NCBI GenBank assembly: GCA_003151745.1
Contig: PLYJ01000044.1
Location: 1 to 48,764, forward strand
Origin: Bacteroidota bacterium
GTDB lineage: Bacteria; Bacteroidota; Bacteroidia; AKYH767-A; 2013-40CM-41-45
Direction of reading: 5' to 3'
DNA: 48,764 nucleotides
The notes under the pieces are model-generated. The model saw nothing but the letters and a program-made list of their open reading frames with translations, was not told the origin of the DNA and ran no database searches. A program made the translations under genes and the position numbers. This document shows, in pieces, positions 3,582 through 43,942 of this stretch (the first letter of the stretch is position 1; each line of letters starts with the position of its first letter).

Positions 3582-4367
3582 CTATTCCCCCTTACCATAA
3601 CCTTTCATTATTCCTCTCGATGAATTGCGTATAAAAAGGAGGATTTCATCGCGTTCGGGAGAAGGCTTCATTTCTGCTTCGATAATTTCAAGTGCGCGGG
3701 AACTATTATGCCCTTTCACAAAAATGGTTCTATATATCTCTTGTATCTCTGCAATCTTTTCATTGCTAAATCCTCTTCTGCGAAGCCCTACTGAATTGAT
3801 CCCCACATAAGCAAGCGGCTCGCGAGCTGCTTTCACAAATGGAGGAACATCCTTTCTGATAAGTGAACCTCCCGAAATCATGACATGCGAACCGATATGC
3901 ACAAACTGGTGAACAGCCGATAACCCGCCAACGATTGCGAAATCATCTATCACAATATGCCCGGCGAGCGTTACACCATTAGCGAGAATGCAGTTGTCGC
4001 CGATAACACAATCGTGAGCGATATGCACATAAGCCATCAGCAAATTGTTTTTGCCGATCACTGTTTTGCCAAGCACCTTGGTGCCCCGGTTTATCGTTAC
4101 AAATTCCCGAACGATAGTATTATCTCCGATCTCGGCAGTAGTTATTTCCCCTGCAAATTTTAAATCCTGCGGGATGGCGCCGATAACAGAGCCCGGAAAT
4201 ATTTTACAATTCTTCCCGATACGTGTTCCCGGCATAATGGTCACACTGCTTCCTATCCAGGTATTTTCACCTATTTCAACATTTTCATGAATAGTGGTAA
4301 AGGGATCTATCTTAACTTCTGACGCAACCTTCGCATCAGGATGAATATACACTAACTTTTCAGCCAT
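3582..4367 (-). CDS. lpxA: Acyl-ACP--UDP-GlcNAc O-acyltransferase
   Basis: LpxA catalyses the first step of lipid A synthesis: transfer of a 3-hydroxyacyl chain from acyl carrier protein to UDP-N-acetylglucosamine, in the cytosol. The 261-residue length matches the family. The first two thirds are left-handed beta-helix hexapeptide repeats (IGxxx pattern, about residues 10-185). The catalytic histidine motif HIAHDC is at 115-120 (His118 equivalent to the E. coli active-site His), and IGAIPQDLKF (62-71) is an LpxA hallmark. The C-terminal helical domain (about 190-261) includes the family-typical GLRRRGFS segment. lpxD, lpxC or fabZ are not in the adjacent DNA, at least within this window. Confidence 0.93.
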   Translation of the reverse strand: MAEKLVYIHPDAKVASEVKIDPFTTIHENVEIGENTWIGSSVTIMPGTRIGKNCKIFPGSVIGAIPQDLKFAGEITTAEIGDNTIVREFVTINRGTKVLGKTVIGKNNLLMAYVHIAHDCVIGDNCILANGVTLAGHIVIDDFAIVGGLSAVHQFVHIGSHVMISGGSLIRKDVPPFVKAAREPLAYVGINSVGLRRRGFSNEKIAEIQEIYRTIFVKGHNSSRALEIIEAEMKPSPERDEILLFIRNSSRGIMKGYGKGE

Positions 4368-4445
4368 TAATTCTAAATTTCGGTTTCAAACCTACATGAA
4401 TTTTGCAGAATACGCAACAGGCGGGTGAAAAGTGTAAATAAAAGC

Positions 4446-4517
4446 CTATTCCTTCACAAACTTTAAAACAAACTTTTGAGTTTGATCTGACAACTCAACA
4501 GCGGTTCTCAAGTCTTA
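4446..4517 (-). pseudogene. Remnant of a T9SS C-terminal sorting domain
   Basis: An open stretch of 23 codons, bounded upstream by a stop, reads DLRTAVELSDQTQ then KFVLKFVKE and a stop. The ending KFVxKFVKE is the typical last beta-strand of type A T9SS sorting domains, compare VVKRFVKE in the intact gene at 15934-16563. No longer frame precedes it and no start codon is present. It is best read as the last scrap of a deleted secreted-protein gene. Confidence 0.45.
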
Positions 4518-4761
4518 GAACAAGTGTTCCATTCTTAACAATTAAGCACCTCATATTTTTCACGGGCATCATGCATATTAAAAGCTTTCACCTGAAATTA
4601 TGAAACAGGTTTAGATACTTAATAAAGTAACAGCAATAACCAATATCCGGACACATCAACCCTTATCGAACGCAGCAATAACTCATTTTCTTTCAGCAAA
4701 GATTAAACATGGGACAGATGAAAATCATCCTGTTTACGCTAAACCCTTTACGAATCCTTAT
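4518..4761. other. Intergenic DNA without recognised features
   Basis: This AT-rich spacer lies between the T9SS-tail remnant and the 21-bp repeat array. I see no gene, tRNA or clear hairpin. The last 21 bases (4741-4761) may be a badly decayed first unit of the array. Confidence 0.5.
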
Positions 4762-5055
4762 AAGGAATTTACAATAATACCTGAGGAATTGTAAATTTCA
4801 TGCGTTGGGGGTATATCCCCTGATGAGGAATTTTTAATGCCTGATGAGGAATTTCAAATGTCATGCATGAAATTTGTAAAGGTTGATGAGGAACTGATGT
4901 TGTCACATAAGGAATTAATGAAATCATATCAACAATTTAAAATAGTTACAAGTAGGCTATGACGGGTATAAGAGGAATTGTTAATGTCATGCAAGGAATT
5001 TGTAAAGGATGATGAACAATTTTCATTGTCATGCATGACAGTGATAAAGCCTTAA
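4762..5055. repeat. 14 x 21-bp degenerate tandem array (locus 1)
   Basis: Fourteen consecutive units of exactly 21 bp with no indels. Most begin RAGGAATT(T/G) and many end TCATGC or TGAT. The periodicity was checked by hand at every unit boundary. Read in the plus frame each unit is a heptad such as EEFQMSC, EELMLSH or KELMKSY, but stops fall in units 2, 10 and 14. The only ATG-to-stop frame of note is 4837-4962 (41 codons). Twenty-one bp is both seven codons and two helical turns. The array sits upstream of the GT-C transferase gene and may be a decayed coding minisatellite or a protein-binding array. Confidence 0.85.
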
Positions 5056-5213
5056 GTGACTTTGAGGCTGTTTCATCATCAACATGCGTTAATTACACTA
5101 ATTTACGTAAATCTTCCTTTAACAAAACCATGCAAATCATTAAAATATTTGGCATACCTTATTAAAAAGGATATTTTTGACCCGCCGGCAGTATAACACA
5201 CATTAACATAAAC

Positions 5214-6887
5214 ATGGTAAAGCCACTTAAAAATAAAAGCAGCAATAAAAGGATTGTCAGCAAGGGCATAAAAAAAACCGGTGATGCTTTGCCTAAAGAT
5301 CAATTTTGGGGATTGGAGAAGTTTCTTGAAAAGAATCAATCAATAATTATTCTCATTTTCTTATTTGTTTCTCTTATTTTTTCATTTTTTTTGTTTGATA
5401 TAAAAATATCAGAAGGCGGTGACGACTCCTATTACATACAACGCGCATGGTTTTTCATAAAACGAAATGAATTCCCCTTTTATCAAGGCCCGATTTATCC
5501 ATTCGTTTTAGCTATTCCAATTTATTTCTTTGGAATAAATCTCATTGTATTAAAGCTTACTTCTGTAATCTTTACTTTAGGTACACTTTGGTTTACCTAT
5601 CTCTCTTTTCGAAAAAGGATTCCTTACATCGTTTTATTTTCACTTATTTTCTTCCTCTCCGCAAACTCGTATATACAATACTATGCAAGTCAAACCTACA
5701 GCGAGGCATTCTTTCTTTTCTTACAGGCATTTGTACTTTATTTGATTATTAAGCTGATTGATTTAATAGCAGTGACGGACAGCGCCCCGGTAAAAAAAAT
5801 TGAATACAAAAATATTTTATTGGTTGGTTTTGGGCTCATGCTTATGTCATTATCAAAAGATATTGCAATTATTTGCATATTCTCTGTCGTTCTGTTTTTT
5901 CTTGCTTATCGCAAATACAAACAGGGCCTTTTTATTTTTATTTCATTCATTACATGGAAAGTTTTAGCTGAAGTATTGATACGGATATTTTATATAGGAG
6001 GGTCAAGTCATGTTCAGCAAATGCTTTTAAAAGATTATTACAAACCGGAATTAGGTTACGAGACTTTTACCGGAATGATAGATCGTTTCTTTGCTAATGT
6101 TGAACACTTTTTATCTGTTAGCCTTCCTAAGCTATGTCACTTCAGAGAGTCAGCTGCTTCTCAATCAATAACCTTTCTTGCAATTGTATTGTCGTTGACG
6201 TTAATCGCAATTGCCATATTCGCTTATAAGCGTAACAAGTATATATTTTTTGCATTAACATACGCTATCATTCTATTCTGTGGCGTTTGTGTTGGATTGC
6301 CTGCCAACCTCGTGCAAGACCGTCATATTTTGATTGCTCTTCCGCTTATTTATATGGCCCTCATTTATGGCCTGTATCAGGTAACGATTAAATCCTCTTC
6401 TGTACTGCGGTTTTATTTTCTCTGCTTCATGCTGATATTCTTTGCCTTCAACCTGTTTAATTCTATCGAAGATTCAACAAGAAATTTCAAAGTACTTCAG
6501 AAAAATATAAAGGGTGATATTTATTATGGCTTCACAGAGGATTGGGTGAATTTCCTTCGCATGAGTACCTATTGTGCTGATAGCCTCCCCCCCTCTTCTT
6601 TCATTGCTTCACGTAAAGCATCCATGTCCTTCATTTACGGAAAGGGAAAAGAGTTTTACCCTGTATTTGTTGTTTTCTCTAATAACGCTGACACTGTTCT
6701 CACAACGTTTAAAAAGGATAAAGTGACTCACGTTATTATGGCAAGCTTACGGCAAAATCCCAAAATTAATAATGGCCAGACAATTAATACCTTACAGCGT
6801 TTGTTTTACCCGCTTCGCGATAGACTTACTTTAGTGAAACAGATTGGAGAAAACGAGCCTGCTTATTTATATAAAATTAATTATTGA
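5214..6887 (+). CDS. GT-C fold membrane glycosyltransferase (GT39/ArnT-like)
   Basis: A polytopic membrane protein of 557 residues with roughly ten to twelve hydrophobic helices (first at about residues 45-65). It has the periplasm-facing acidic motif EGGDDSYYIQRAW just after TM1, the place where GT39 and related GT-C enzymes carry their catalytic Asp. Such enzymes move a sugar from a polyprenyl-phosphate donor to a lipid, glycan or protein acceptor on the outer face of the inner membrane. The soluble C-terminal part (about 430-557) is short. The convergent GT2 gene next to it looks like a polyprenyl-phosphate sugar synthase and could make its donor, which is inference. The start is preceded by 45 basic or polar residues. 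Confidence 0.8.
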   Translation: MVKPLKNKSSNKRIVSKGIKKTGDALPKDQFWGLEKFLEKNQSIIILIFLFVSLIFSFFLFDIKISEGGDDSYYIQRAWFFIKRNEFPFYQGPIYPFVLAIPIYFFGINLIVLKLTSVIFTLGTLWFTYLSFRKRIPYIVLFSLIFFLSANSYIQYYASQTYSEAFFLFLQAFVLYLIIKLIDLIAVTDSAPVKKIEYKNILLVGFGLMLMSLSKDIAIICIFSVVLFFLAYRKYKQGLFIFISFITWKVLAEVLIRIFYIGGSSHVQQMLLKDYYKPELGYETFTGMIDRFFANVEHFLSVSLPKLCHFRESAASQSITFLAIVLSLTLIAIAIFAYKRNKYIFFALTYAIILFCGVCVGLPANLVQDRHILIALPLIYMALIYGLYQVTIKSSSVLRFYFLCFMLIFFAFNLFNSIEDSTRNFKVLQKNIKGDIYYGFTEDWVNFLRMSTYCADSLPPSSFIASRKASMSFIYGKGKEFYPVFVVFSNNADTVLTTFKKDKVTHVIMASLRQNPKINNGQTINTLQRLFYPLRDRLTLVKQIGENEPAYLYKINY

Positions 6888-6922
6888 ATCCGGTAGTCAC
6901 GCATTAATTATTTTAAAGCGGA

Positions 6923-7660
6923 TTACCATTTTTTATTAAAATCTCCACGCGAAAAATATTTTTCAATAAAGACGTACATTAATATAAAGAAGTATCTGCT
7001 TCCCATTTCCCGGACTTTTAATTTTGATTCACCTGACTTCCTGTTTGTCCATGAGTTTGGAACAATGGTGTATGTATATCCCCTAATGATTGCTTTGAGA
7101 GGAAGCTCAATAGTGAGGTTAAAATGAGGGGCTATGAATGGCTTGATTCCGTCAATAGTATGTCGTTTATATAGTTTGAAAGCGTTAGTGGTATCATTGT
7201 AATTTATGCACATAACCATGCGAATAATAAAATTAGCCATCCTGTTGATTATTTTTTTCATTGCAGGATAATCAACAGTTTTTCCACCTTTAATAAAACG
7301 GCTTCCGAACACACAATCATAATTGCCTTCAATCATGGTTGTATAAAACCTGATAAGATCGTACGGAGAATCTGACAAATCGCCCATCATTATGGCTACA
7401 CAATCACCGCTATACCGTTCTAATCCATATCTGACAGCATAGCCAAAACCATTAGGGCCACGGTTTGTTTCATGCCTTAGGGATGGAAACTTCTTTGTCA
7501 ACTCCTCCAAAACTTTTGCAGTATTATCTTTTGAATTATCATTGACGACAAAAATTTCGTGTTCAATTTTAAATTTTTCAAAAGCATGCTCTATTTGTTC
7601 AATAGTTTCTGCAATTGACCCCTCTTCGTTATAGGCAGGAATGACAACACTTAATTTCAT
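6923..7660 (-). CDS. GT2 family glycosyltransferase, DPM1-like
   Basis: A 245-residue GT-A enzyme of the dolichol/polyprenyl-phosphate mannosyltransferase type. The N-terminus SVVIPAYNEE (4-13) and the nucleotide-binding VVNDNSKDNT (38-47) are typical. The acidic motif GDLSDSP (93-99) occupies the DxD position. There is no C-terminal pair of transmembrane helices, so this is the soluble, peripheral form. It probably charges polyprenyl phosphate with a sugar from a nucleotide donor on the cytosolic face. It sits downstream of the two epimerase genes on the same strand (36 bp after the first), suggesting one surface-sugar operon. Confidence 0.88.
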   Translation of the reverse strand: MKLSVVIPAYNEEGSIAETIEQIEHAFEKFKIEHEIFVVNDNSKDNTAKVLEELTKKFPSLRHETNRGPNGFGYAVRYGLERYSGDCVAIMMGDLSDSPYDLIRFYTTMIEGNYDCVFGSRFIKGGKTVDYPAMKKIINRMANFIIRMVMCINYNDTTNAFKLYKRHTIDGIKPFIAPHFNLTIELPLKAIIRGYTYTIVPNSWTNRKSGESKLKVREMGSRYFFILMYVFIEKYFSRGDFNKKW

Positions 7661-32699: not shown

Positions 32700-33386
32700 T
32701 TACATGCTTGGAACGGTTACCGTTACAGCGTTAGATAATACTCCTTCACCATTGGTGTTTAAAGGAACAATCCAATATGACCATGTTACGGAAGCACTTG
32801 TGCTATTGGTATCAATGAAGGATGATTTTGTAGTTGTTGCTATCTGCTTAGCAGCAGAGAAAACGACTGTTGTTCCTCTATATATGTTGTAAGATTTAAC
32901 GTTACCGGCTGTTGCAGTGTTAAGCGGTTTTTTCCATTTTATCTTAACCTGGTTGCCGTTGAGCTTGCGCGAAACGAAGTTGTGAAAGCTCTGCACCATT
33001 TGAAGAACGCCTTGCGGATTCTTTGGATTTGAAAACTGATAACCGCTTGTTACGATTATTGCACCCATTGCATTATAATCGCTACCTGCTGCTGTCTGTA
33101 CGGTGTTCTGCACATATTGAGCAAGTGATTTCAGCATTTGCGAAAGCGTTAGCGCCTTTTGGCGAAGATCAACAAGCGAAGCATGGGAGCCACGATTTCC
33201 TTTAGAACCCCAAACAGCAATGGCGGTTTCAACGTCTGTAACAGCGGATTGAAGCGAAAGCAATGTTGGTGATGGGGTTGTGAAATTTGCGTTGCCAGTC
33301 ATGCTAACTACAATACGATTGGCAAGATTGACAAGCCCTGCGTAGGCAGTTGTTCTGAGTTTGATTGCAATGATAGGTTTTGCCAT
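32700..33386 (-). CDS. FN3-like protein, WGxxGNRGSH family (copy C)
   Basis: A 228-residue protein, the downstream member of a tandem pair with copy D. By hand count about 78% of residues are identical over the full equal length, so the pair is a fairly recent duplication. Helical N-terminal half with VWGSKGNRGSHASLVDL (about 58-74). FN3-like C-terminal half with VKIKWKKPLN, VKSYNIYRGTT and WSYWIVPLN, ending VTVTVPSM. No signal peptide, function unknown. An intrinsic terminator lies immediately upstream (end of gene D), and I see no TAnnTTTG element in the gap, so expression of C may need read-through. Confidence 0.85.
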   Translation of the reverse strand: MAKPIIAIKLRTTAYAGLVNLANRIVVSMTGNANFTTPSPTLLSLQSAVTDVETAIAVWGSKGNRGSHASLVDLRQKALTLSQMLKSLAQYVQNTVQTAAGSDYNAMGAIIVTSGYQFSNPKNPQGVLQMVQSFHNFVSRKLNGNQVKIKWKKPLNTATAGNVKSYNIYRGTTVVFSAAKQIATTTKSSFIDTNSTSASVTWSYWIVPLNTNGEGVLSNAVTVTVPSM

Positions 33387-33412
33387 TGTATTAAATTATT
33401 ATTGTTGCTTTG

Positions 33413-33449
33413 AAAAAAAACCCGTTCTGTTTTACCGGAACGGGTTTTT
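33413..33449 (-). terminator. Terminator between FN3-like genes D and C
   Basis: CCCGTTC (33421-33427) pairs perfectly with GAACGGG (33438-33444), flanked by eight A on the left and five T on the right, so it can work on both strands. It lies 20 bp past the stop of gene D and just upstream of gene C. Confidence 0.85.
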
Positions 33450-33469
33450 GAAATATTATTAAGATGATT

Positions 33470-34156
33470 TTACATGCTTGGAACGGTAACCGTTACTGCG
33501 TTGGATACTACTCCTACACCGTTGGTGTTGACGGGAGCAATCCAATATGACCATGATACGGAAGCACTTGTGCTGTTCGTATCAATGAAAGATGTTTTGG
33601 TAGTAGATGCTAACTGCACGGCAGCAGAGAATACAGAAGTTGTTCCCCTGTAAACATTGTAGGATTTAACGTTACCGGCTGATGCAGTGTTAAGTGGCTT
33701 TTTCCATTTCATCTTCACCTGGTTGGCGTTGAGCTTACGCGAAACGAAGTTGTGAAAGCCCTGCACCATCTGAAGAGTGCCTTGCGGATTCTTTGGATTT
33801 GAAAGTTGAAAACCACTTGTAGTGATAACTGCTGCCATCAATGCGTAATCACTTCCGGCTGCTGTTTGGGCGGTGTTCTGCACATACTGAGCAAGTGATT
33901 TAATGGTTTGAGAAAGTGTAAGTGCCTTTGTCTTTAAATCAACAAGGGAAGCGTGAGAACCACGATTGCCTCTTGGCCCCCAAACTGCAATTGCATTAAC
34001 CACATCAGTTATTGCTGTTTGAAGTACGGCAAGTGCCGGTGCCGGGGTTGCGTAACTTAAATTTCCTGTTAAACTTGCAACAACGCGATTGCCAAGATTG
34101 ACAAGTGCTGCGTAAGCAGTAACGCGGGTTTTGATTGCTATAATTGGCTTTGCCAT
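33470..34156 (-). CDS. FN3-like protein, WGxxGNRGSH family (copy D)
   Basis: A 228-residue tandem partner of copy C. Family motif VWGPRGNRGSHASLVDL, followed by a helix rich in Thr/Gln/Leu (ALTLSQTIKSLAQYVQNT). The FN3-like C-terminal domain has VKMKWKKPLN, VKSYNVYRGTT and WSYWIAPVN. The strictly shared features of all four copies are the GNRGSH motif, a SGxxxxNPK/NPG turn in the middle, and the W-x-KPL and YWxxPVN/LN strands of the FN3 part. No secretion signal. A TACATTTG promoter element lies 31 bp upstream on its strand. Confidence 0.85.
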   Translation of the reverse strand: MAKPIIAIKTRVTAYAALVNLGNRVVASLTGNLSYATPAPALAVLQTAITDVVNAIAVWGPRGNRGSHASLVDLKTKALTLSQTIKSLAQYVQNTAQTAAGSDYALMAAVITTSGFQLSNPKNPQGTLQMVQGFHNFVSRKLNANQVKMKWKKPLNTASAGNVKSYNVYRGTTSVFSAAVQLASTTKTSFIDTNSTSASVSWSYWIAPVNTNGVGVVSNAVTVTVPSM

Positions 34157-34195: not shown

Positions 34196-35160
34196 TGGCA
34201 GTAAATTCTTTTGGATGTCATGAATAAAGATGCAGGAGGAAGCGAAGGGAAGCACATTTTTAGCATGGAAGCAAATTCGTATCATTTTTCAAAAACTATG
34301 CCCTTACACTACTCTTAATTTAAAGCAAGGTACTATCAAGCCGGGAAGTGGGGTGAGCACAAAAGCGAAACCGAACGGCTGTCCAGCGAAGCGAGGCGAC
34401 TGTTTAGGGAGACGTAGCGAAAGCGGGTTATTACGAGCAGCCCGCCGCGTGAGGGGCGAAGGCTCAGACGCTGAACGGCAGAGAAGCGTTTGAGCCTGAG
34501 ACGCACCCCGAATGCACAGCGTAACGACTGAGGGAGTGACCCTGTTGGCTTGAGCGTTGGCGGAACGGTGGAAGAAGTGAAGCGAGGAGCGGCGGGTTGC
34601 GGAACACTATATATTCAATGCTATAATCTTTCAGCCACACCCCTGCCCTCTCCGAAGGAGAGGGATAATGGCTGTTTTTGTGCATGACTGAACTGAGTGG
34701 AGTTGTAACGTAGCCGAAGTCGGACGAAGTCCGACGAAGGCGAAGAGAAAACGGAACGAAGGAAGTGATGCACGGCTGTTTGAGCGAAGTTCGCGTAGTG
34801 TAGCCGGAGTCGGACGAAGTCTGACGGAGGCGAAACGAGCGGACTGAGCGAATGTATTTGGCTGTTGCAAGGTTGCTGCATACCGCAAGGAATGAAGGTA
34901 GCGTAACGTAGGCGTAGCTTGCTACGCCGAAGTAAGCGGACGTAATGACTGAGGATATGTAGCTACCGTATTTGTTTTGAGCAAACAGGGCATGACGGGC
35001 AAAGTCTGTCATGCTTTGTTTGCGATTGCATTAGGGATTGTAACGGAAATCCTTTTCTGTTTACAGAAAAGATTGTAGAGGAAAGCCCGACTTGGAAGGG
35101 AATGCCCAAATGGTTTTATACACAGGTAGGGGTTTAAAAAAAGGGTGCAAAGGTACTGCT
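34196..35160. other. Purine-rich gene-free structured DNA (block 2)
   Basis: About 1 kb without a credible gene. The plus strand is rich in GCGAAG, GGCGA and GAACGG words. Strong hairpins: GGCTCAGACGC/GCGTTTGAGCC (34461-34496, one mismatch), CCCTCTCC/GGAGAGGG (34646-34664) and GGCGTAGC/GCTACGCC (34911-34928, 2-nt loop). The density of perfect stems is well above that of the flanking genes. Confidence 0.6.
34710..34834 (+). repeat. Two 35-bp hairpin-bearing direct repeats
   Basis: Bases 34710-34744 and 34800-34834 match at 31 of 35 positions, spaced 90 bp. Each contains TCGGAC-GAA-GTCCGA or the variant TCGGAC-GAA-GTCTGA. The single change in the second arm keeps a G-U pair, so the stem is preserved at RNA level. 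Confidence 0.75.
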
Positions 35161-35214: not shown

Positions 35215-36000
35215 TTGAATAGTTTAGAGAATTATATTACGAAAATCAATGAAAGCACGATTAGTGCTTTTGCGCGTTCATACAATGTTTTGGACTATTC
35301 GCACAAACTCAGAGAAATTTTATCCTCACTCCTTCCTGAAAATGATTTCAGTAACAGCACAAAATTAGAACTGCATAATACAATCAATTACATTTTAACA
35401 AAACGATATAAAGGTGAAAGTGGATTGAAGGCAAAACTCGTTGCAATGTTTGTTAAAGAAAATGTTACTGCCGCTTTCGAGATAAGGGTGAATAATAGCC
35501 GGATTGATTTTCTAACAATCAATGGAGACACGAAAAGCTACGAGATAAAATCAGGAATTGATAATTTAGACAAACTTGCGAAGCAAGTGAGTGACTACGA
35601 AAGGGTTTTTGAGTACAATTACATAGTAATTGACGAAAAACATTTATTAGCGGCAAAAAAAATAATCCCTGAGCACTATGGGATTTACGTGTTGGAAAAA
35701 GAAAAATTAGTTAAGAAAAAAGAGGCTGAACAAAATTGTTGTTTAAAACCTGAAATGCAACTACAACTTTTTACGAAAAAAGAATTAGGACAGCAATTCA
35801 AAGGGGTTGAAACTACTGTTGCGAAAATTGCGAAGCAATTTACAGCAACAGAAATCAATGAGAGTTTCAAAACGATGTTGAAGAAACGATATGAAAAGCG
35901 GTGGGCATTTCTTAAACAAAATATGAGCGAAATATTACCGATAGATTACCAATTCTTTTTTCATCACAACATTCAACCGAAAGTAATTTACGGGGCTTAG
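35215..36000 (+). CDS. sce7726-like PD-(D/E)XK nuclease-type protein
   Basis: A 261-residue soluble protein. The central region shows a restriction-endonuclease-like core: SRIDFL (Asp98) and SYEIKSG (Glu110, Lys112), followed by DKLAKQVSDYERVFEYNYIVID, as in sce7726 family proteins of defence islands. The helical N-terminus (1-85) and C-terminus (180-261) are less conserved. The likely start is TTG (35215-35217), as no ATG fits. A TAACTTTA element lies 30 bp before it. The gene is convergent with and overlaps by 4 bp the sce7725-like gene, its usual family partner. Nuclease activity is inferred from the motif only. Confidence 0.75.
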   Translation: MNSLENYITKINESTISAFARSYNVLDYSHKLREILSSLLPENDFSNSTKLELHNTINYILTKRYKGESGLKAKLVAMFVKENVTAAFEIRVNNSRIDFLTINGDTKSYEIKSGIDNLDKLAKQVSDYERVFEYNYIVIDEKHLLAAKKIIPEHYGIYVLEKEKLVKKKEAEQNCCLKPEMQLQLFTKKELGQQFKGVETTVAKIAKQFTATEINESFKTMLKKRYEKRWAFLKQNMSEILPIDYQFFFHHNIQPKVIYGA

Positions 36001-37067
36001 TGAATAACTCCTGATGCAATCGCTGTTTTGACACAGTGTAAATAGTGTTCTATTGAAATCCTTTTGAACTTTGCCTGGCTCTTTCCGCTTTCGCCACCGG
36101 TACTGATATTTTGCAAAATGCTCCATCCAACATTGTCTGCATTTAAGTAGTTAGGATCAGCAGCACGAATAGCTGTTGCCACGGGTGAAGCCAAAACATC
36201 CGGAACTATAGTTGTTTCAAACTCTGCAAGATTTTTTACATCCCCTTTGTAGCCATAATATAAGTTGTCAGCAGGGTTGTAAAGAATGAAGCCCGGACTA
36301 ATTGTTCCGCCTGATGTTAAGTCGTCTTTTTTTATACCAACATAATCACCAAAAGCATTGAAGTGAAATTGTCCAAACATTTCTAACAAACTATTGTCTG
36401 CTTCATAAACAATATCACCATGATTAAGGCGAACATTTTGAATATCCGTATTGATAGCACTTCTTAGAGCAACTTTCCACGGCAGAGCAATAGTGTCAAG
36501 AGTGGTTCTATCTTTCTTTATTACAGGGTTTGTTAAACCTACCCCTTCCTGAATATCATAAATTAAAAAGTCATCTGCTGTAAGCAATGCACTAATCTCA
36601 GCTAAATCACTGTTGAACGTGTTTGTGAAAGTTCTTATCGCAACTGATGAAAACGTTTGTTTTAAGTTTTGAAATTGTTGAGTGATTGTGTTTTGTTGAC
36701 CTGTCTTAATTAGCAAAGTAGAAACTACTGGAATAACTTTTGGGTGCTGTGCTGCAAACAAATTGTAATGGGCAAGCCGGTTATCAATGTTCGATAAAAC
36801 AGTCCTATTGAATGATACAACTTCATCCTGCATACCTGATGCATCTCGGATATAAGTGGGTAAATCAACAAATACTTTATCAGAGTGAATTGCAACAATA
36901 AGGTCAGAATATATCTCTTGAAAAGTGTGTTGATTATTTGACCTATCCTTTTCTTTAACAATTTCAATCAATGGAAACATTTTGGTACCAAAGTCAAATG
37001 AACGAAGAACAATCATTTCTTGCTGTCTCGCCCTGAAAGTTGGCATGTAAAGTAAGTTACTCGGCAT
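35997..37067 (-). CDS. sce7725-like / beta family protein
   Basis: A 356-residue soluble protein. The N-terminus LYMPTFRARQQEMIVLRSF...MFPLIEIVKEK matches what I recall of sce7725 and beta family proteins (Y-P-x-R-x-x-E-L start followed by a PxIEP-like strand), which occur beside sce7726 nucleases. The alternation of strands and helices suggests a TIM-barrel-like fold, an inference. Molecular role is unknown. It is the last gene of the minus-strand operon. Its ATG overlaps the stop of the cyclase-like gene by 11 bp, and its stop overlaps that of the convergent sce7726-like gene. Confidence 0.72.
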   Translation of the reverse strand: MPSNLLYMPTFRARQQEMIVLRSFDFGTKMFPLIEIVKEKDRSNNQHTFQEIYSDLIVAIHSDKVFVDLPTYIRDASGMQDEVVSFNRTVLSNIDNRLAHYNLFAAQHPKVIPVVSTLLIKTGQQNTITQQFQNLKQTFSSVAIRTFTNTFNSDLAEISALLTADDFLIYDIQEGVGLTNPVIKKDRTTLDTIALPWKVALRSAINTDIQNVRLNHGDIVYEADNSLLEMFGQFHFNAFGDYVGIKKDDLTSGGTISPGFILYNPADNLYYGYKGDVKNLAEFETTIVPDVLASPVATAIRAADPNYLNADNVGWSILQNISTGGESGKSQAKFKRISIEHYLHCVKTAIASGVIH

Positions 37068-37878
37068 ATTCTGTAATTTTTAGTGATTTGATTTTTTCTA
37101 TTTCTTCATTATCAGGGACAAAGTCCTTTTCCAAAAACATCATTTCATTTAGGTAATCATCAATGAATTGATTTAATTCCCTTGCGAGCCATTCGTATTT
37201 GATTGCAATTTTTTCTTTTGTCTGATTTAAAGCAAGGTTTTGAAGTATTGAGCTATGCATTGTTTCAAGAAGCTCAATTATGTTTTCATTGTTAACCAAA
37301 TAAAAAAATGTATTAAGGTAGGATACTTCACAATGTTGTTTAATAAGATAATTTTTTTGAATGATGTAATTTTCACTTATCAAATTGTTCTCAGCATAGT
37401 TGTCAAGTAATTTAGTGTAATTAGGAGAAAGAACTATGCGGGGATATATTGCAACATCTTTTTCAAGTGTAACTGCACAAGCCAAAGGAACACCAACTGC
37501 AATTTCCTTTTCATCAATAAACTTTCCCACATCTAAGCCACCTCTCAGAAAATAACCTTTCTGTGCAAATTTAAAAAACAAATCATTGATAGTGTTAAGA
37601 ATATCAATCAATAGGTCGCGATTTGCTTCAAAGTCAATAGTGATGCAGATATTATCGGAGAAAAGATAATAAGTAAAATCCTTTTCATCCAAAATGCTTA
37701 CTACACTCTTGAAAGTATTAATAAATTCATTTACTGCTTTAGATATATAAAACTCTGAATCCTCCTCCTCTTTGTTCTTTATGGCTTCATTTTGGAACTC
37801 TACTAATTTTGCATGAAAGCCTAATATGTCAAGGAAAACTACTGCTCTGTTTTGATATATGTATTGTTCGTTTGCCAT
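37057..37878 (-). CDS. Class III nucleotidyl-cyclase-like protein
   Basis: A 273-residue soluble protein with a single class III cyclase-like domain (about 8-180). The metal-binding motif VVFLDILGFH (Asp17) starts the first strand. LFSDNICITID (Asp75) supplies the second metal ligand, and FLRGGLDVGK (110-119) matches the RxGxxxG dimer-loop strand. Both metal Asp residues are present, so catalysis is plausible. Substrate-selecting residues cannot be assigned. The C-terminal part (about 185-273) is helical and unfamiliar. Pyrimidine cyclases of Pycsar anti-phage systems have this fold, but no Pycsar-type membrane or TIR effector is adjacent. It overlaps the sce7725-like gene start by 11 bp. Confidence 0.72.
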   Translation of the reverse strand: MANEQYIYQNRAVVFLDILGFHAKLVEFQNEAIKNKEEEDSEFYISKAVNEFINTFKSVVSILDEKDFTYYLFSDNICITIDFEANRDLLIDILNTINDLFFKFAQKGYFLRGGLDVGKFIDEKEIAVGVPLACAVTLEKDVAIYPRIVLSPNYTKLLDNYAENNLISENYIIQKNYLIKQHCEVSYLNTFFYLVNNENIIELLETMHSSILQNLALNQTKEKIAIKYEWLARELNQFIDDYLNEMMFLEKDFVPDNEEIEKIKSLKITEYAE

Positions 37879-37899
37879 TCCTTTCTCGTAACTCCTATT

Positions 37900-38220
37900 T
37901 TAGCTAAGCAATTCTAAATATTCCTTCAAAAGCATTTCAGAGGGCTTAATAATTTCACGCTCGTATTTATTAATGAGCGGGTGGCGTGTGAATTTGGTGC
38001 GGAAATCATAAAGAAGGTAGTTGTATATCCAAATGTCTTGCCATATATATGGATGGGTTCGCATTTTTTCAAAATCAAAATAGCGTTTAAGGATTGTCAG
38101 AAACTTTCTGTCCTGCTTGGGATTTTCTTTTCCTAAGTCGTCTTTAATCTTTGCGATTTGCTCCTGCGTTAAGTACCGGCTAACAGCAATGAAAATTATG
38201 TATCGGGGTGAAGGTCTCAT
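37900..38220 (-). CDS. Small unknown protein of the defence-type operon
   Basis: A 106-residue protein I do not recognise. It is basic and aromatic-rich (FEKMRTHPYIWQDIWIYNYLLYDF) and probably all-helical, with no membrane segment. Its ATG overlaps the stop of the DprA-like gene by 4 bp (ATGA type), and it ends 21 bp before the cyclase-like start, so it is firmly within the operon. It may be an adaptor or effector, with no direct evidence. Confidence 0.7.
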   Translation of the reverse strand: MRPSPRYIIFIAVSRYLTQEQIAKIKDDLGKENPKQDRKFLTILKRYFDFEKMRTHPYIWQDIWIYNYLLYDFRTKFTRHPLINKYEREIIKPSEMLLKEYLELLS

Positions 38221-38708
38221 TTAGTTTCTTCCAACATTTTTTCTTTAGAAAACAATGTTGTGATTGGTTTTTGAATTGAGTAAAGCAACATTTCTAACTG
38301 ACCGCCGGGACTGGCATAACCAACGGTTATGCTGTCTGCTATTTCAAGCATCATCTTGTTTCTTGTTGCTGCTGTTTCTTCTGTTACTCTTTTTATTTTT
38401 TTCTCAAAGGGGGTTACGATTAGTAACCTCCCCTGCTCTATTGGGAGTTGAAACTCGGTTTCAACTTTTTCTTTTAGACCTCTTGCAAGGGCAACGATGA
38501 TGGGTTGCTTGCCTTTTAGAAGGTAATGCAAAACATCTTTTTCTAATTGAGAATGAAACCCACTAATGATGCAGTTGCCTTGCTCCCTCTGCTCTATTGC
38601 CCAATCATAGCATTTAAGGACTACCGATGCAGGCGTTTTGCGACTGCATAAGAAAGCTGTTTTGTGCAGCTTCAATATTTCAGTATTACCATGAGTTGCT
38701 TTTATCAT
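38217..38708 (-). CDS. DprA/SLOG-like nucleotide-binding protein
   Basis: A 163-residue single Rossmann-like domain. FLCSRKTPASVVLKCYDWA, CIISGFHSQLEKDVLHYLLKGKQPIIVALARGL and the late ATRNKMMLEIADSITVGYASPGGQL follow the DprA order of motifs (SRxxS, SGxxxxxD-like, RN, SGG-like). DprA's C-terminal winged helix is absent, so this is not the transformation protein itself. SLOG-fold proteins bind nucleotides or ssDNA and several act as sensors in defence systems. It overlaps the methylase stop by 4 bp (ATGA). Confidence 0.7.
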   Translation of the reverse strand: MIKATHGNTEILKLHKTAFLCSRKTPASVVLKCYDWAIEQREQGNCIISGFHSQLEKDVLHYLLKGKQPIIVALARGLKEKVETEFQLPIEQGRLLIVTPFEKKIKRVTEETAATRNKMMLEIADSITVGYASPGGQLEMLLYSIQKPITTLFSKEKMLEETK

Positions 38709-41362
38709 TCATCATTTGAGCTTTCAAGTTCTTTGCTCATTCTGTATTTATAATCATAATTAATTAAAAAATCTATCTCTTCATCATTAAAGCCGTAGTG
38801 CTCAGATAAGACTTTATCAATCTCATCCATTGTATTTTTCGACTGAGATTTATTATATGTTATCGTTTCATTGCTACCTCTGGTTTTGCTGTTTATGGTA
38901 TATGAAGTTGCATTTTTCAAAAGTTCTTTCTCCAATTTGTCAGAAAGTTTAACCAATTTTTGTTCAATAGCTTTATCATTAGGATAGTTAGACTTGAATC
39001 CAAAAATCATATAATCTTTAAAATTAAATTGGTCAAAGTTTATCGAATAATACCACCAAAATAAATTTGAATTAAGGACTGCTGAAAAAACTTTTGAATT
39101 ATATTCCTTCTGAAACGAAGCTGCTTTATTACTTAGAGATTCTGTATCGAAATCTTCATTCAAAATTGTAACCCAATAACCACCACCAGCAGTACGATAA
39201 AATATTTTATTATTTGCAGCATTGCTATTACTTAGAAAGTTCCTAATCTCTTTGTGCTTTAAATATTTATTTAGAATTGATGTTTCTATAACAGAACCAA
39301 TTTTCAGTAATTGTTTTTGATTTGATTGGTCGGCAGCAACATAAGATAGGTTAGTAAAAAGAAGATTTCTCGTTTCAGATTTCCATCTATAAACAATTGT
39401 GGAATACATTCCTTTGATTGCACTCTGCTTGTAAACTATAAATATTGAAAGACGCTGTAAAACTCCTTCAAACAATGCGGCTGGTCTTTGGTGATAATTG
39501 GAAACATACGAAAGAGGAAACCTTTTAAATAACGTTTGAACAGTTTCCATACTTGCATTGGAAAAGGCACTAATAGGAATAATCATTCCCATTAATCCAT
39601 TTTTGTTTAAAATATTATTGCTTCTTTCAATTACAAATCCGTAAAGATTTGCGCACTTCTCGGTTTCATAATTCTTTATCCTATAATCATCACGAACTTT
39701 TGAGTATTCAACATACGGAGGGTTGCCAATGATAATATCAAAACCATTATTATCGTGCATTATTTCATAGAACTCGGCAAACCAATGGAAGGGCTTGTAT
39801 TTATCAAGCCATTTATCATATTTTAATCCATCTGCTTGCTTATATAAAAGCATGTTCAGTTCGCGGTTTAATTCCCTCAATCGTTCCTCCAAAGTTAATT
39901 TGTCGCGCTTAACCGTTTTGTAATCTCTTACTGTTACTTGGCTATTTTTAAAGTTTCTGTAAGCCATTGAAACAATTTCCATTTTTTCAGTAATGGCCGG
40001 TTTTGCAAGTTGTCCATCAAGAGTATAATTCAATGCCTTGTCCAACTCAGAATCTGTACCAAAGCCAATTAATGTATTTCCTGAACGAATATTGAAATCA
40101 ATATCCGGTAGCGGTTCTAATCCTAAGTTTGGTTTCCGATAATCAACCTCAACAGTTGCCACTAATTTAAGGAACAAGCGCAGCTTGGCGATTTCAACCG
40201 CTTCTTTCATTATGTCCACTCCATAAAGGTTGCGGAGGATAATGTTTTTGTAAATGAAGTAACTCAGGTTGGGATGTTCAGGGGCTGTAACCTGTGCAAT
40301 GGTTTCTTCAAAGAATTTGTATCTTCCTTTAGGGGCATCATTGACAAAGTTTTGCATACGTTGTATGCACTGCTCATACAGTTCTTCCAAAATATTCATT
40401 GCAGCAAAGAGGAAAGCTCCTGAACCGCAAGTGGGGTCAATGATGCTAACGCTGTTTAGTGCCTTGTAAAATGATTTCAGAAACTCAGGGTCATTGGTAT
40501 TGGCTAAGCAGTCAATGGCAAACTGACGGACGTTGAGATTGTATGTGATGAAATCATTGATGTTTTGTATTTCACCCTTTTCAATCTTGCTTTTTATTAC
40601 GCTGTATCGGGTACGGCGGTCAATTACTTCCCTCCATATTTCAGTAGGCAAGGCAAATTGTTCCTGAGCTTGCTTATTCCATTCTGTTCTTGCACTGACG
40701 TTTTTAATTCCGGCTGCAATTTCATCAGGCAATTTTTCATCCACTCCTTTTTTAACCGCATCGTAGATGTAGTTATTGTTGCTTTGCTTCACCATTTGCC
40801 ATAACTCGGCATCAGGTAAAAATGCTTTAGCATTTTGCCGTTTAGTTTCTTCAAACAAGAAAGGAAGAATGCAATTCTTACTGATGTAATCGGTTATATC
40901 TTCTTTGGTGTAGTATGCACCCATGTCAGCCCTGTCATTGATGTATTTCTCAAAGATGTAACCGATAACATCAGGGTTGATGTCTTTCCCTGTAGCGGTA
41001 ATGCGCGTGTCAAGATGCCATTCGTACTGGTCGAAAAAATCGAAAATCCTTTCAGCTAACCTCTTTTTTAGTTTTACTGCTTCGGCTGTGTCAATGATGT
41101 GTTCTCCATCTTCGCGGAAATGTTCACGCAAAATATCAATGCCCGTTTTCTGCATACCGACAAGCAATCGGCAAATGCGGTGAACATCATCGTTGCCTTC
41201 TGTAACTGTCGTACCCTGCAAGCTGTCAATTTTTGCAGCTACTTCCTTCCATCCTCTCAGGTTGAAATAGCCAACGCAAAAGTCTGTGCGGTGGGATAAC
41301 TCTAAGGTTTCATTTAAACCTTTTGTGAGTTGGTGTTCTATATTGTCGTAAATTTTCGGCAT
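38705..41362 (-). CDS. N6-adenine DNA methylase, Eco57I-type, with chimeric N-terminus
   Basis: An 885-residue methylase. S-adenosylmethionine-binding motif I is DPTCGSGAF (309-317) and catalytic motif IV is NPPY (547-550). The segment MGAYYTKEDITDYI (147-160) is typical of Eco57I/PglX-like enzymes. The C-terminal third (about 560-885) should be the target recognition region. Residues 1-73 (MPKIYDNIEHQLTKGLNETL, then FCVGYFNLRGWK and CRLLVGMQKTG) do not belong to this family. They match the start of PLD-domain DEAD/DEAH helicases from similar loci, from memory. No nuclease motif is seen in the chain. First gene of the operon. Confidence 0.82.
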   Translation of the reverse strand: MPKIYDNIEHQLTKGLNETLELSHRTDFCVGYFNLRGWKEVAAKIDSLQGTTVTEGNDDVHRICRLLVGMQKTGIDILREHFREDGEHIIDTAEAVKLKKRLAERIFDFFDQYEWHLDTRITATGKDINPDVIGYIFEKYINDRADMGAYYTKEDITDYISKNCILPFLFEETKRQNAKAFLPDAELWQMVKQSNNNYIYDAVKKGVDEKLPDEIAAGIKNVSARTEWNKQAQEQFALPTEIWREVIDRRTRYSVIKSKIEKGEIQNINDFITYNLNVRQFAIDCLANTNDPEFLKSFYKALNSVSIIDPTCGSGAFLFAAMNILEELYEQCIQRMQNFVNDAPKGRYKFFEETIAQVTAPEHPNLSYFIYKNIILRNLYGVDIMKEAVEIAKLRLFLKLVATVEVDYRKPNLGLEPLPDIDFNIRSGNTLIGFGTDSELDKALNYTLDGQLAKPAITEKMEIVSMAYRNFKNSQVTVRDYKTVKRDKLTLEERLRELNRELNMLLYKQADGLKYDKWLDKYKPFHWFAEFYEIMHDNNGFDIIIGNPPYVEYSKVRDDYRIKNYETEKCANLYGFVIERSNNILNKNGLMGMIIPISAFSNASMETVQTLFKRFPLSYVSNYHQRPAALFEGVLQRLSIFIVYKQSAIKGMYSTIVYRWKSETRNLLFTNLSYVAADQSNQKQLLKIGSVIETSILNKYLKHKEIRNFLSNSNAANNKIFYRTAGGGYWVTILNEDFDTESLSNKAASFQKEYNSKVFSAVLNSNLFWWYYSINFDQFNFKDYMIFGFKSNYPNDKAIEQKLVKLSDKLEKELLKNATSYTINSKTRGSNETITYNKSQSKNTMDEIDKVLSEHYGFNDEEIDFLINYDYKYRMSKELESSNDE

Positions 41363-41433: not shown

Positions 41434-42552
41434 TCATTGGCTTACCGTTTGGAGAGTTTGCCAATTAATAGGAAGTAATGTTGAAAAGAGTTTCTCGGCT
41501 TCATCCTTGTCAATGTAGGTGGGGATGTGCAGGCGTTTGTTGTATGCTTCGGGGCTTTCATACACTGCTATTCGTTTTGGGTCTATCGGCATGGGGATGT
41601 AAAATTTGCCGTCTGTGCCTATGAAGGGGGTTTCGATAAGCTGCTCCTGGGGTTCCCGGGTAGGTTCCCGAAAAACCGGGGGGTGATCAGGGTTCTTTGC
41701 GGCGAAGGGGTATTTATTGTGGCTGTCTGCTTGAGTAGTGTAAACATGCCTTACAATGTCTGTGATTTCCGCTTCGGGGAAATCAGGTTGAACATAGTTC
41801 AAACAACCGTTTAAGGTTTCGCCTTCGGTCAAACCTTTTAGGTTGCAATACCGGGCAAGAGCAATGACGTAGGCATGGCGATTGTCTTTTACAAAGGCAT
41901 GACTTTTATTTATCTGCTCGTTGCACCATTGAAAAGCATTTTCAGGCGTTCCTGCGGCACCGCCTGACGGGTAACTGTGTTTGATGTGATGGAAAGTTTT
42001 TTCAGCAGGAAGCAAGGCATAAGGCTTTGCAGCGTGGTTAAAGATTTGGGTTGTGTTATCATTCCATGAAACAAAGCGGGGCTGTGAAATGGCTTTATGG
42101 CACTCGTCACCCATTGGCAAACCCAAATCATTGAATGACTGAATAAGCCGTTGATAATGCTTTTCATATTTATCAGGGTAAAGAAAAGGCACTATGCAGT
42201 AAAGCCTTTTGCCCCTGCATGATAGCCCGACATAAGCAATACAATCAAGTTTTTTGAGTTCATTGAGAAGATGGGGAATGTCGTAATCTTCGGCGCTGTC
42301 GAGATCAACGGCTGCAAGTCCTGAACGTATGAGTATTCCTTCCTCACATCTACGGCTGAATGTTCCGGCAACTGTAAAACAGGGTAGATTGTCTTTGAGT
42401 TGCTTTTGCACTTCTGCCGTGCTTGCACGGAGATTTACTATTCGTTCTTTATGCTTATCACTTTGAAGAAGGGTAAGTAAATTTACATCTATCCCTTGCG
42501 TAGTTGCGCTTTTTGATGGGAAATAACTGATTATCTTATTTAAAATGCTCAT
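41434..42552 (-). CDS. BT4734/VirE-N domain protein (primase-like)
   Basis: A 372-residue protein. The N-terminal 200 residues, with LRASTAEVQKQLKDNLPCFTVAGTFSRR...LAAVDLDSAEDYD and GLSCRGKRLYCIVPF, match the BT4734-like / VirE N-terminal domain, related to archaeo-eukaryotic primases. Asp and Ser/Arg residues are at the expected places. A helical PriCT-like region follows (about 205-275, CNEQINKSHAFVKDNRHAYVIALARYCN). It is found in mobile elements of Bacteroidota together with D5 helicases, as here (gap of 85 bp to the helicase gene upstream). Likely role: priming replication of the element. Confidence 0.82.
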   Translation of the reverse strand: MSILNKIISYFPSKSATTQGIDVNLLTLLQSDKHKERIVNLRASTAEVQKQLKDNLPCFTVAGTFSRRCEEGILIRSGLAAVDLDSAEDYDIPHLLNELKKLDCIAYVGLSCRGKRLYCIVPFLYPDKYEKHYQRLIQSFNDLGLPMGDECHKAISQPRFVSWNDNTTQIFNHAAKPYALLPAEKTFHHIKHSYPSGGAAGTPENAFQWCNEQINKSHAFVKDNRHAYVIALARYCNLKGLTEGETLNGCLNYVQPDFPEAEITDIVRHVYTTQADSHNKYPFAAKNPDHPPVFREPTREPQEQLIETPFIGTDGKFYIPMPIDPKRIAVYESPEAYNKRLHIPTYIDKDEAEKLFSTLLPINWQTLQTVSQ

Positions 42553-42637: not shown

Positions 42638-43942
42638 CTAAAACACATTTTTTGTCATGTTAAAATGGTACCCATCATTTCTCCTTGTCTTTTCAAAACC
42701 TTTTCGTTCCAACCGTTGAGAAAATTTATTTTTACCTACCGGCTTGTAACCATCCTCACCGCAAAAGGTTTTGTAATAGCCGTATAATTCTGTCAACGCT
42801 ACTTTGTAAATATCTGAGGACTGATAGTTGTGCTCCTCGATAAACAACTGAACGCTGTCGCTCTGCTTGCGGAACTCACCTAATGCTGCATTTGCTTTGC
42901 TACAGTCGCTGAATTTTCCTTGCTTAATGATTCTATTTAATCCGCCTAAAAGCCAGTTAAACACACCGGGCAACTCATTTGCAATTATTTTTCTTGCAAG
43001 CTCACTATCTCTATCTTCCGGCTTTATATATGTATCAAAAGGAACTATTAAATATCTTTCAAAATATGCGTTGGTTTGTTCGGTCTCTCTTGGCAGTTCA
43101 TTAGCGTTCATTATAAATCTAACTTTATTACGAAGTGTAAAACTTCTGCCATAAGGTTCTCTTGCTTGCTGCGGCTCACCACTTATAAGGGCTTTAAAGG
43201 TTTCTACATTCAAATCGGTCCCCTTCTCACTGCTGTAATTTAAAAGTACATTAGTAAGTTTAGCTCTATGATATTCATGATTAAATAAACCGAGGGAATA
43301 AGTGAGTATGTTTTTAACACCTATCAAAGCTTGCAGTACATTAAAGAAAACACTTTTGCCGTTCCTTCCGCTACCATATAACACAAGCATTTTTTCAAAG
43401 TGAAACGATGTAAAAATATATCCTGCAAATTCCTGTAATATCGTCCTGCTTTCTTCATCGGGCAGGACTTGCGAAAGGTAATTATCATATATAGGACAAA
43501 CGGCATCCTCTTCATAACTGAAAGGTAACTGATATGTCAGGAAATCATTAGCATTAAAATCTCTCAATGCTCCTCCGCCAGGAGTAAATTCAAACGTGCC
43601 ATTTTGCAGATTGATCAGGATTTTTTCAGCTTCAGCCGGAGGGGGTGGCAAATGGCCGTCAGTTAAAAATTGTTTCAATAGCTTGTCCTTAAATTCAAAA
43701 TGTCTTGCATCATAGTCAGGGCAGCCCATTTTAATTGCGACTTTGCCTAAGAAGGCTTTCATATCTTCTTTATCGAGTTGCTGCCAAAAAGCACCGTTAA
43801 AGACGTAGGTGTAATCATAGACTTTTGATAAATTCCATTGCTTATTCTTTGCTACTTCTAAGAGATTTTTTATGACAGCTACAATGATGTGCTTCTGCTT
43901 TATATCTGTGCCGGGACATGAAAAAGTTAAGTCAAAACACAT
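42638..43942 (-). CDS. D5/P4-type SF3 primase-helicase
   Basis: A 434-residue superfamily 3 helicase of phage and plasmid type. The Walker A GSGRNGKS is at 190-197, Walker B/C lies in the LNYSSEKGTDLNVETFKALISGEP and RFIMNANELPRE stretches, and the Arg finger is in the NAYFERYLIVPF strand. The N-terminal D5_N-like part (about 15-170) contains FNGAFWQQLDKED and LQNGTFEF. The C-terminus has a winged-helix-like FSQRLERKGFEKTRRNDGYHF. It drives origin unwinding of a mobile element. It starts 88 bp after pstB on the same strand, so pst read-through is possible. Confidence 0.88.
   Translation of the reverse strand: MCFDLTFSCPGTDIKQKHIIVAVIKNLLEVAKNKQWNLSKVYDYTYVFNGAFWQQLDKEDMKAFLGKVAIKMGCPDYDARHFEFKDKLLKQFLTDGHLPPPPAEAEKILINLQNGTFEFTPGGGALRDFNANDFLTYQLPFSYEEDAVCPIYDNYLSQVLPDEESRTILQEFAGYIFTSFHFEKMLVLYGSGRNGKSVFFNVLQALIGVKNILTYSLGLFNHEYHRAKLTNVLLNYSSEKGTDLNVETFKALISGEPQQAREPYGRSFTLRNKVRFIMNANELPRETEQTNAYFERYLIVPFDTYIKPEDRDSELARKIIANELPGVFNWLLGGLNRIIKQGKFSDCSKANAALGEFRKQSDSVQLFIEEHNYQSSDIYKVALTELYGYYKTFCGEDGYKPVGKNKFSQRLERKGFEKTRRNDGYHFNMTKNVF

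Follow-up and report, generated by a model that had tools for sequence, protein, structure and literature searches.

Background

The closest described relatives of the locus reported here are anti-phage systems built on a Beta-family protein. In the satellite phage P4, gop and beta on the plus strand and cII on the minus strand lie at 247-2540, with beta annotated as "beta family" and cII as "sce7726 family"; E. coli carrying gop-beta-cII is protected from both lambda and P1, and Gop shows toxicity when Beta is missing (Rousset et al. 2022, PMC9122126). The third component of a second system, PD-lambda-2C, is related to a P4 antitoxin and is required for defence (Vassallo et al. 2022, PMC9519451). 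Here we describe a locus at positions 35215-41362 of a 48,764-nucleotide stretch of a Bacteroidota genome (the window; contig PLYJ01000044.1, assembly GCA_003151745.1), in which a Beta gene and a convergent sce7726 gene are accompanied by cyc, a gene whose product is modelled with the fold of class III nucleotidyl cyclases. An initial annotation had proposed the locus as an unnamed six-gene defence operon. Its view that a protein with a class III cyclase fold is encoded beside sce7725/sce7726 in a locus of defence type is supported, and we found no published description of such an arrangement. The closest known system, P4 gop-beta-cII, had been overlooked.

The cyc-Beta-sce7726 gene set

Re-reading of the sequence returned all six open reading frames (ORFs) with the strands and junctions first listed for them, namely 4-bp overlaps at 38705/38708 and 38217/38220, a 21-bp gap between 37878 and 37900, an 11-bp overlap at 37057/37067 and a 4-bp tail-to-tail overlap at 35997/36000. 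Three of these genes concern us most. The cyc gene (37057-37878, minus strand) encodes a 273-aa protein and occupies the position that gop has in P4. Beta (35997-37067, minus strand; 356 aa), a relative of P4 Beta and PD-lambda-2C, matches the Beta_protein family (PF14350, 2.7e-23) and the PADLOC beta model (3e-8); its earlier label, sce7725-like, is borne out by that family, while the model actually named sce7725 matches only at E=0.025. The gene convergent with it (35215-36000, plus strand) encodes a relative of sce7726 and P4 CII (NF033832, 6.7e-31; PADLOC cll, 3e-11; BLASTP to P4 CII, 2e-6). Its residues D98, E110 and K112, which the initial annotation had picked out correctly, are invariant in nine aligned proteins including P4 CII and are spaced as expected of a PD-(D/E)XK site; the product is predicted to be a PD-(D/E)XK nuclease.

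The set recurs independently of the other three genes. Among 396 Bacteroidota genomes a single close cyc relative was found, in an uncultured Chlorobiaceae metagenome-assembled genome (G285), where cyc, Beta and sce7726 stand in the window's order with no methylase or SLOG gene adjoining. A search with the Beta pair added G413, which belongs to the window's own order (cyc 44% and Beta 47% identical); in it cyc and Beta, again with no methylase or SLOG gene, lie at a contig end, before the position of sce7726. Window Beta is 46-47% identical to the G285 and G413 copies, and in a further genome (G640) a remnant of Beta is accompanied by an intact, convergently oriented sce7726 gene, 44% identical. 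In all, cyc and Beta are adjacent in three genomes, and sce7726 follows wherever the contig extends far enough, which is the case in two of them. Divergence is of a similar extent in the three proteins, and although identity is only 36-47%, the 11-bp overlap of the 3' end of cyc with the 5' end of Beta (37057-37067, minus strand in the window) has the form ATG-N5-TAA in all three cyc-Beta loci (ATGCCGAGTAA in the window, ATGGCATATAA in G413 and ATGGACAATAA in G285). The three Beta-adjacent cyc proteins form one clade with a support of 1.00, and none of the 18 other cyc proteins in the tree adjoins Beta. The co-conservation of cyc first proposed therefore extends to sce7725 and sce7726, but not to the methylase, SLOG and 106-aa genes, and cyc-Beta-sce7726 forms a set of its own, independent of methylase and SLOG.

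The set is rare, since a search with the cyc-clade alignment gave no additional copy among the 42 genomes of the order or among 100 genomes from a different class (that of genome G302). A contig scan with a two-row cyc alignment, which made poor peptide patterns, returned the Chlorobiaceae locus alone; window Beta had nothing close in the phage, viral and plasmid sets, nor window cyc in the phage and viral sets. Family counts are to be read as lower bounds, PF14350 having missed the Chlorobiaceae Beta.

Comparison with named systems and the exchangeable partner gene

The locus shares with P4 gop-beta-cII the succession of an effector-type gene, Beta and a tail-to-tail convergent sce7726/CII gene, a Beta-family protein above the PF14350 cut-off, a CII relative with invariant D, E and K, and a carrier element with a primase/helicase module. 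It differs in its effector gene, which encodes the 273-aa cyclase-fold protein rather than the 133-aa Gop, in the strong divergence of its Beta and CII from those of P4, and in the junction of effector gene and Beta, an 11-bp overlap as against a 2-bp gap in P4. The first gene is not Gop: no similarity between cyc and Gop was detectable, direct homology of the two was rejected, and the window accordingly holds a variant of the chassis rather than a member of gop-beta-cII. PD-lambda-2 likewise has a Beta-family third component, needed there for defence, but its HigB-like toxin (A) and HTH-ImmA/IrrE protein (B) have no counterpart among the six genes of the window.

Wherever measured (11 of 11 loci), Beta and sce7726 are convergent tail to tail, and in 10 of the 11 their 3' ends overlap, by 4-119 bp. 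The gene ahead of Beta varies: it is gop in P4, cyc in the window and, at locus L054, a gene for an HTH-ImmA/IrrE protein matching PD-lambda-2B; an HTH gene plus a separate ImmA gene precede Beta at L057 and L058, a 1116-aa IIG-type methylase (3959-7309) lies 3 bp ahead of the pair at L055, and no gene stands close at L056. Because this recurrent pair has a varying partner (Gop, HTH-ImmA, type IIG methylase, cyclase-like), the comparison suggests that sensing and restraint fall to Beta/CII and that the exchangeable partner is the effector.

Plasmid operons (L071, L073 and L075) were also seen in which the same pair has a toxic-type partner, in the order sce7726-sce7725-RES NAD+ phosphorylase. 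They share with the window the sce7726 and sce7725 families and a third, probably toxic, gene, and differ in having all three genes on one strand in that order and in the RES identity of the third. Directly ahead of the window sce7726 gene lies a Flavo-1 RNA (Rfam RF01705, 58 bits; 35026-35096, plus strand). Promoter and terminator scans gave signal no better than chance, and the AlphaFold2 model of Beta was poor (pLDDT 50.6).

The cyclase-like protein

Neither cyc nor the 106-aa protein matched any family in Pfam, PADLOC or NCBIfam, sequence searches of the PDB gave no credible relatives, and none of 14 cyc-family members (window and 13 relatives) had a credible Pfam match. The class III cyclase-like character first read from the sequence is backed by structure prediction: an AlphaFold2 model built from eight sequences (pLDDT 84, pTM 0.81) has class III cyclases as its best PDB matches in Foldseek, led by adenylyl cyclase CyaC (1wc4, E=1.6e-5, TM by target 0.56) and including the Anabaena Pycsar uridylate cyclase (8jsz, E=6.3e-4). 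A fold search of BFVD gave one weak viral match only. In class III cyclases two metal aspartates sit in the first strand and in a hairpin turn. The cyc model has D17 in that first strand, D75 in the turn of the hairpin and R112-G113 in a later strand; all members of the three cyc alignments (A4, A5 and A8) keep D17, D75 and R112, and D17 and D75 are predicted to be the metal aspartates.

The canonical transition-state Asn and Arg would fall at cyc 133 and 137, as counted from the glycine of the following strand in a sequence alignment rather than from superposed coordinates; neither position is conserved in the family, and two members have Arg at 137. Ordinary 3',5'-cyclase activity appears doubtful because these residues are not conserved. 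GGDEF and Cas10 palms, however, function without the canonical transition-state residues. With Pycsar, in which the cyclase PycC is paired with PycTM or PycTIR, the locus shares the class III fold with two metal aspartates. It differs in lacking a TM or TIR receptor gene among its six genes by Pfam, PADLOC and NCBIfam, in lacking the canonical transition-state residues, and in the spacing of the aspartates, 58 residues in cyc as against 44 in EaPycC and AnPycC (D102/D146 and D62/D106; PMC11224242).

The cyc family is a wide, un-named cyclase-fold family across genomes, phages and plasmids. Distant relatives stand alone in plasmids, one of them directly after a Dsr1 gene. Lone cyc-family cargo genes were also noted in six viral contigs (L060, L063, L064, L065, L066 and L067), in L064-L066 between phage tail genes, and a second, lone family member, about 30% identical, is present in the window genome itself (contig C205; L021, 8356-9093).

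Proposed function

Computation gives the gene set and its order, the conserved overlap, the families, the cyclase fold, the metal and nuclease residues and the separateness from methylase and SLOG. From these we arrive at a reading to which we would assign an even chance, namely that cyc-Beta-sce7726 is an abortive-infection module of the gop-beta-cII type with cyc as the effector in place of the membrane toxin Gop. Beta, translated by way of its overlap with cyc, would keep cyc inactive, as P4 Beta does Gop; phage infection would free cyc, possibly through processing of phage DNA by the sce7726/CII nuclease, whose gene lies on the opposite strand; and freed cyc would use its two-metal site to consume or modify a nucleotide and so stop growth. 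By homology with P4 and PD-lambda-2 we infer the anti-phage role and the part of Beta as restrainer, whereas the trigger, the chemistry of cyc and the role of sce7726 in this scheme are speculative.

Several observations weigh against this reading. As cyc has no similarity to Gop, its toxin role rests on position, and window Beta has no significant pairwise BLASTP match to P4 Beta, the two being linked through Pfam and PADLOC profiles. The pair at L055 directly follows an IIG-type methylase, so a methylase can partner Beta elsewhere. Moreover, cyc-Beta was seen in no more than three genomes: the reading frame of the Chlorobiaceae cyc is interrupted by an in-frame TAA about 183 codons in, and so that copy may be dead or misread; the G413 contig stops before sce7726; and G640 has only a Beta remnant with sce7726.

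More tentatively, Beta and sce7726/CII might be a general chassis for different killers, fitted here with a nucleotide enzyme of cyclase fold and non-canonical catalysis, Beta controlling its product or the depletion of its substrate, with a coupling to the sce7726 nuclease.

It seems unlikely that cyc is instead the synthase of a nucleotide messenger, as in Pycsar or CBASS, that activates the sce7726 nuclease, Beta serving as the sensor or receptor. The class III fold with its matches to CyaC and 8jsz, the retention of D17, D75 and R112 throughout the alignments, and an adjoining nuclease gene with intact D/E/K are all consistent with such signalling, but the transition-state positions are not conserved in the family, the locus has no cyclic-nucleotide-binding, TIR or other receptor domain by the profile searches above, and Beta functions without a cyclase in P4 and PD-lambda-2.

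The same lack of conservation at the transition-state positions would fit a catalytically dead cyc that senses nucleotides or binds a phage factor while Beta or sce7726 kills, as would the occurrence of lone relatives as phage and plasmid cargo genes, where a binding role would suffice. We nevertheless regard this as improbable: both metal aspartates are retained in every aligned relative, which is unusual for a dead enzyme.

The methylase-SLOG island and the carrier element

The next gene upstream of cyc (37900-38220, minus strand) encodes the 106-aa protein, which had been listed as unknown and is still without a family; it has no relative in any compared locus and falls outside the conserved set. 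Beyond it lie the SLOG/DprA-like gene (38217-38708, minus strand) and the methylase ORF. The former label is sustained by PADLOC PsyrA (3.5e-9) and by PF02481 at 8e-5, below the curated cut-off; the protein is 73-75% identical to copies in two other genomes, G015 and G417, the latter from the order to which the window belongs.

The N6-adenine methylase motifs of the 885-aa ORF were read correctly and belong to an Eco57I/type IIG methylase (PADLOC PDLC03628, 3e-198; Pfam Eco57I, 9.4e-29), but the ORF is not one gene, as had been supposed: it is an in-frame fusion of a helicase start to a type IIG enzyme. In a search of 41 relatives it matched two genes on one G417 contig, about 4 kb apart, through residues 1-108 and 91-883. 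Residues 1-103 (41054-41362, minus strand; the first ~103 codons) are 70% identical to the start (residues 3-111) of a 1141-aa PLD/SNF2 helicase, and the remainder (38705-41053, minus strand) is 56% identical to the type IIG enzyme from residue ~297 on, spanning residues ~297-1086. The BLAST junction falls between residues 103 and 104, and the DNA match ends between 41063 and 41054. Motifs I and IV (DPTCGSGAF and NPPY) are present; the nuclease-bearing part, judged from the lost N-terminus rather than from the nuclease motif itself, is replaced by the 103 helicase residues. An intact orphan methylase was rejected, the ORF being a fusion remnant.

In G417 (locus L053) the order is the 1141-aa PLD/SNF2 helicase, the 1086-aa type IIG enzyme, then DarT and DarG, and last a SLOG protein sharing 75% identity with that of the window. 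Related SLOG genes occur in 21 of 396 Bacteroidota genomes, and their neighbourhoods repeat the succession helicase-IIG-variable cargo-SLOG at L091, L092, L093, L095 and L100; between these fixed ends the cargo (DarTG, other genes) differs from locus to locus, L053 included, and cyc is absent from all six. At L090 the methylase likewise lacks its N-terminus. Because this island recurs in Bacteroidota without cyc, the methylase and SLOG genes are best assigned, on sequence comparison, to a separate and common restriction-type island, of which the window would hold a decayed copy: it is the source of both genes, and the window differs from it in lacking the helicase motor and PLD domain, some 296 residues at the N-terminus of the IIG enzyme, and cargo of the kind represented by DarTG.

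Upstream of the island lie genes for a BT4734-like primase (41434-42552, minus strand; PF08800, 4e-9) and a D5-like primase/helicase (42638-43942, minus strand; DUF5906, D5_N, Pox_D5). The same pair occurs in a sibling element of the same genome (L128; G000 contig C13, 26500-43748), at 75% identity for the first and 59-60% for the second. L128 also holds a tyrosine integrase, RteC and HTH_17 genes and, as cargo, a Septu PtuA/PtuB pair and a PLD helicase. As L128 carries an integrase and Septu PtuA/PtuB cargo, this type of element transports defence genes, and the placing of defence cargo beside primase genes repeats, in another lineage, what is seen in P4; together the two elements suggest a Bacteroidota cargo hotspot comparable to that of P4. 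No integrase lies beside the window primase genes, which are directly followed by the pst operon. In most relatives pstB is followed at this place by another gene, from one shared family, which we take, by eye from the sequence, to be phoU. Next to the locus, at its other end, are a 40-nt repeat pair (34705-34834) and two paralogous 228-aa proteins encoded in tandem (32700-34156), neither of which falls into a known family.

The locus is best explained as the part of a decayed integrative element that holds its cargo, at one end; two defence modules unrelated to each other adjoin there, of which cyc-Beta-sce7726 is the active-looking one. We think it quite unlikely that the whole region is decaying cargo, functionless in this strain, or in part a misassembly, as the helicase-methylase fusion, the primase genes without an adjoining integrase and the state of the genome (a 279-contig draft with 6.82% contamination) might be taken to indicate, for cyc, Beta and sce7726 are intact in the window and keep motifs and overlap at 36-47% identity, which is hard to account for without selection. 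The single operon first proposed, with all six genes acting together in modification, signalling and nuclease attack, is very improbable and was rejected: its tight head-to-tail packing (4-bp overlaps, 21-bp gap) permits co-transcription, but the methylase is a fusion remnant, and each gene set recurs without the other, the island at the six loci above and cyc-Beta in G285 and G413.

Conclusions

If the chassis reading is true, it would join gop-beta-cII-type immunity and nucleotide-signalling immunity. The studies of gop-beta-cII and PD-lambda-2 (PMC9122126, PMC9519451) leave unexplained how these systems sense phage and what Beta and CII do. The cyc version would offer an enzymatic effector with a measurable product or substrate, so that the question of Beta and CII would become testable.

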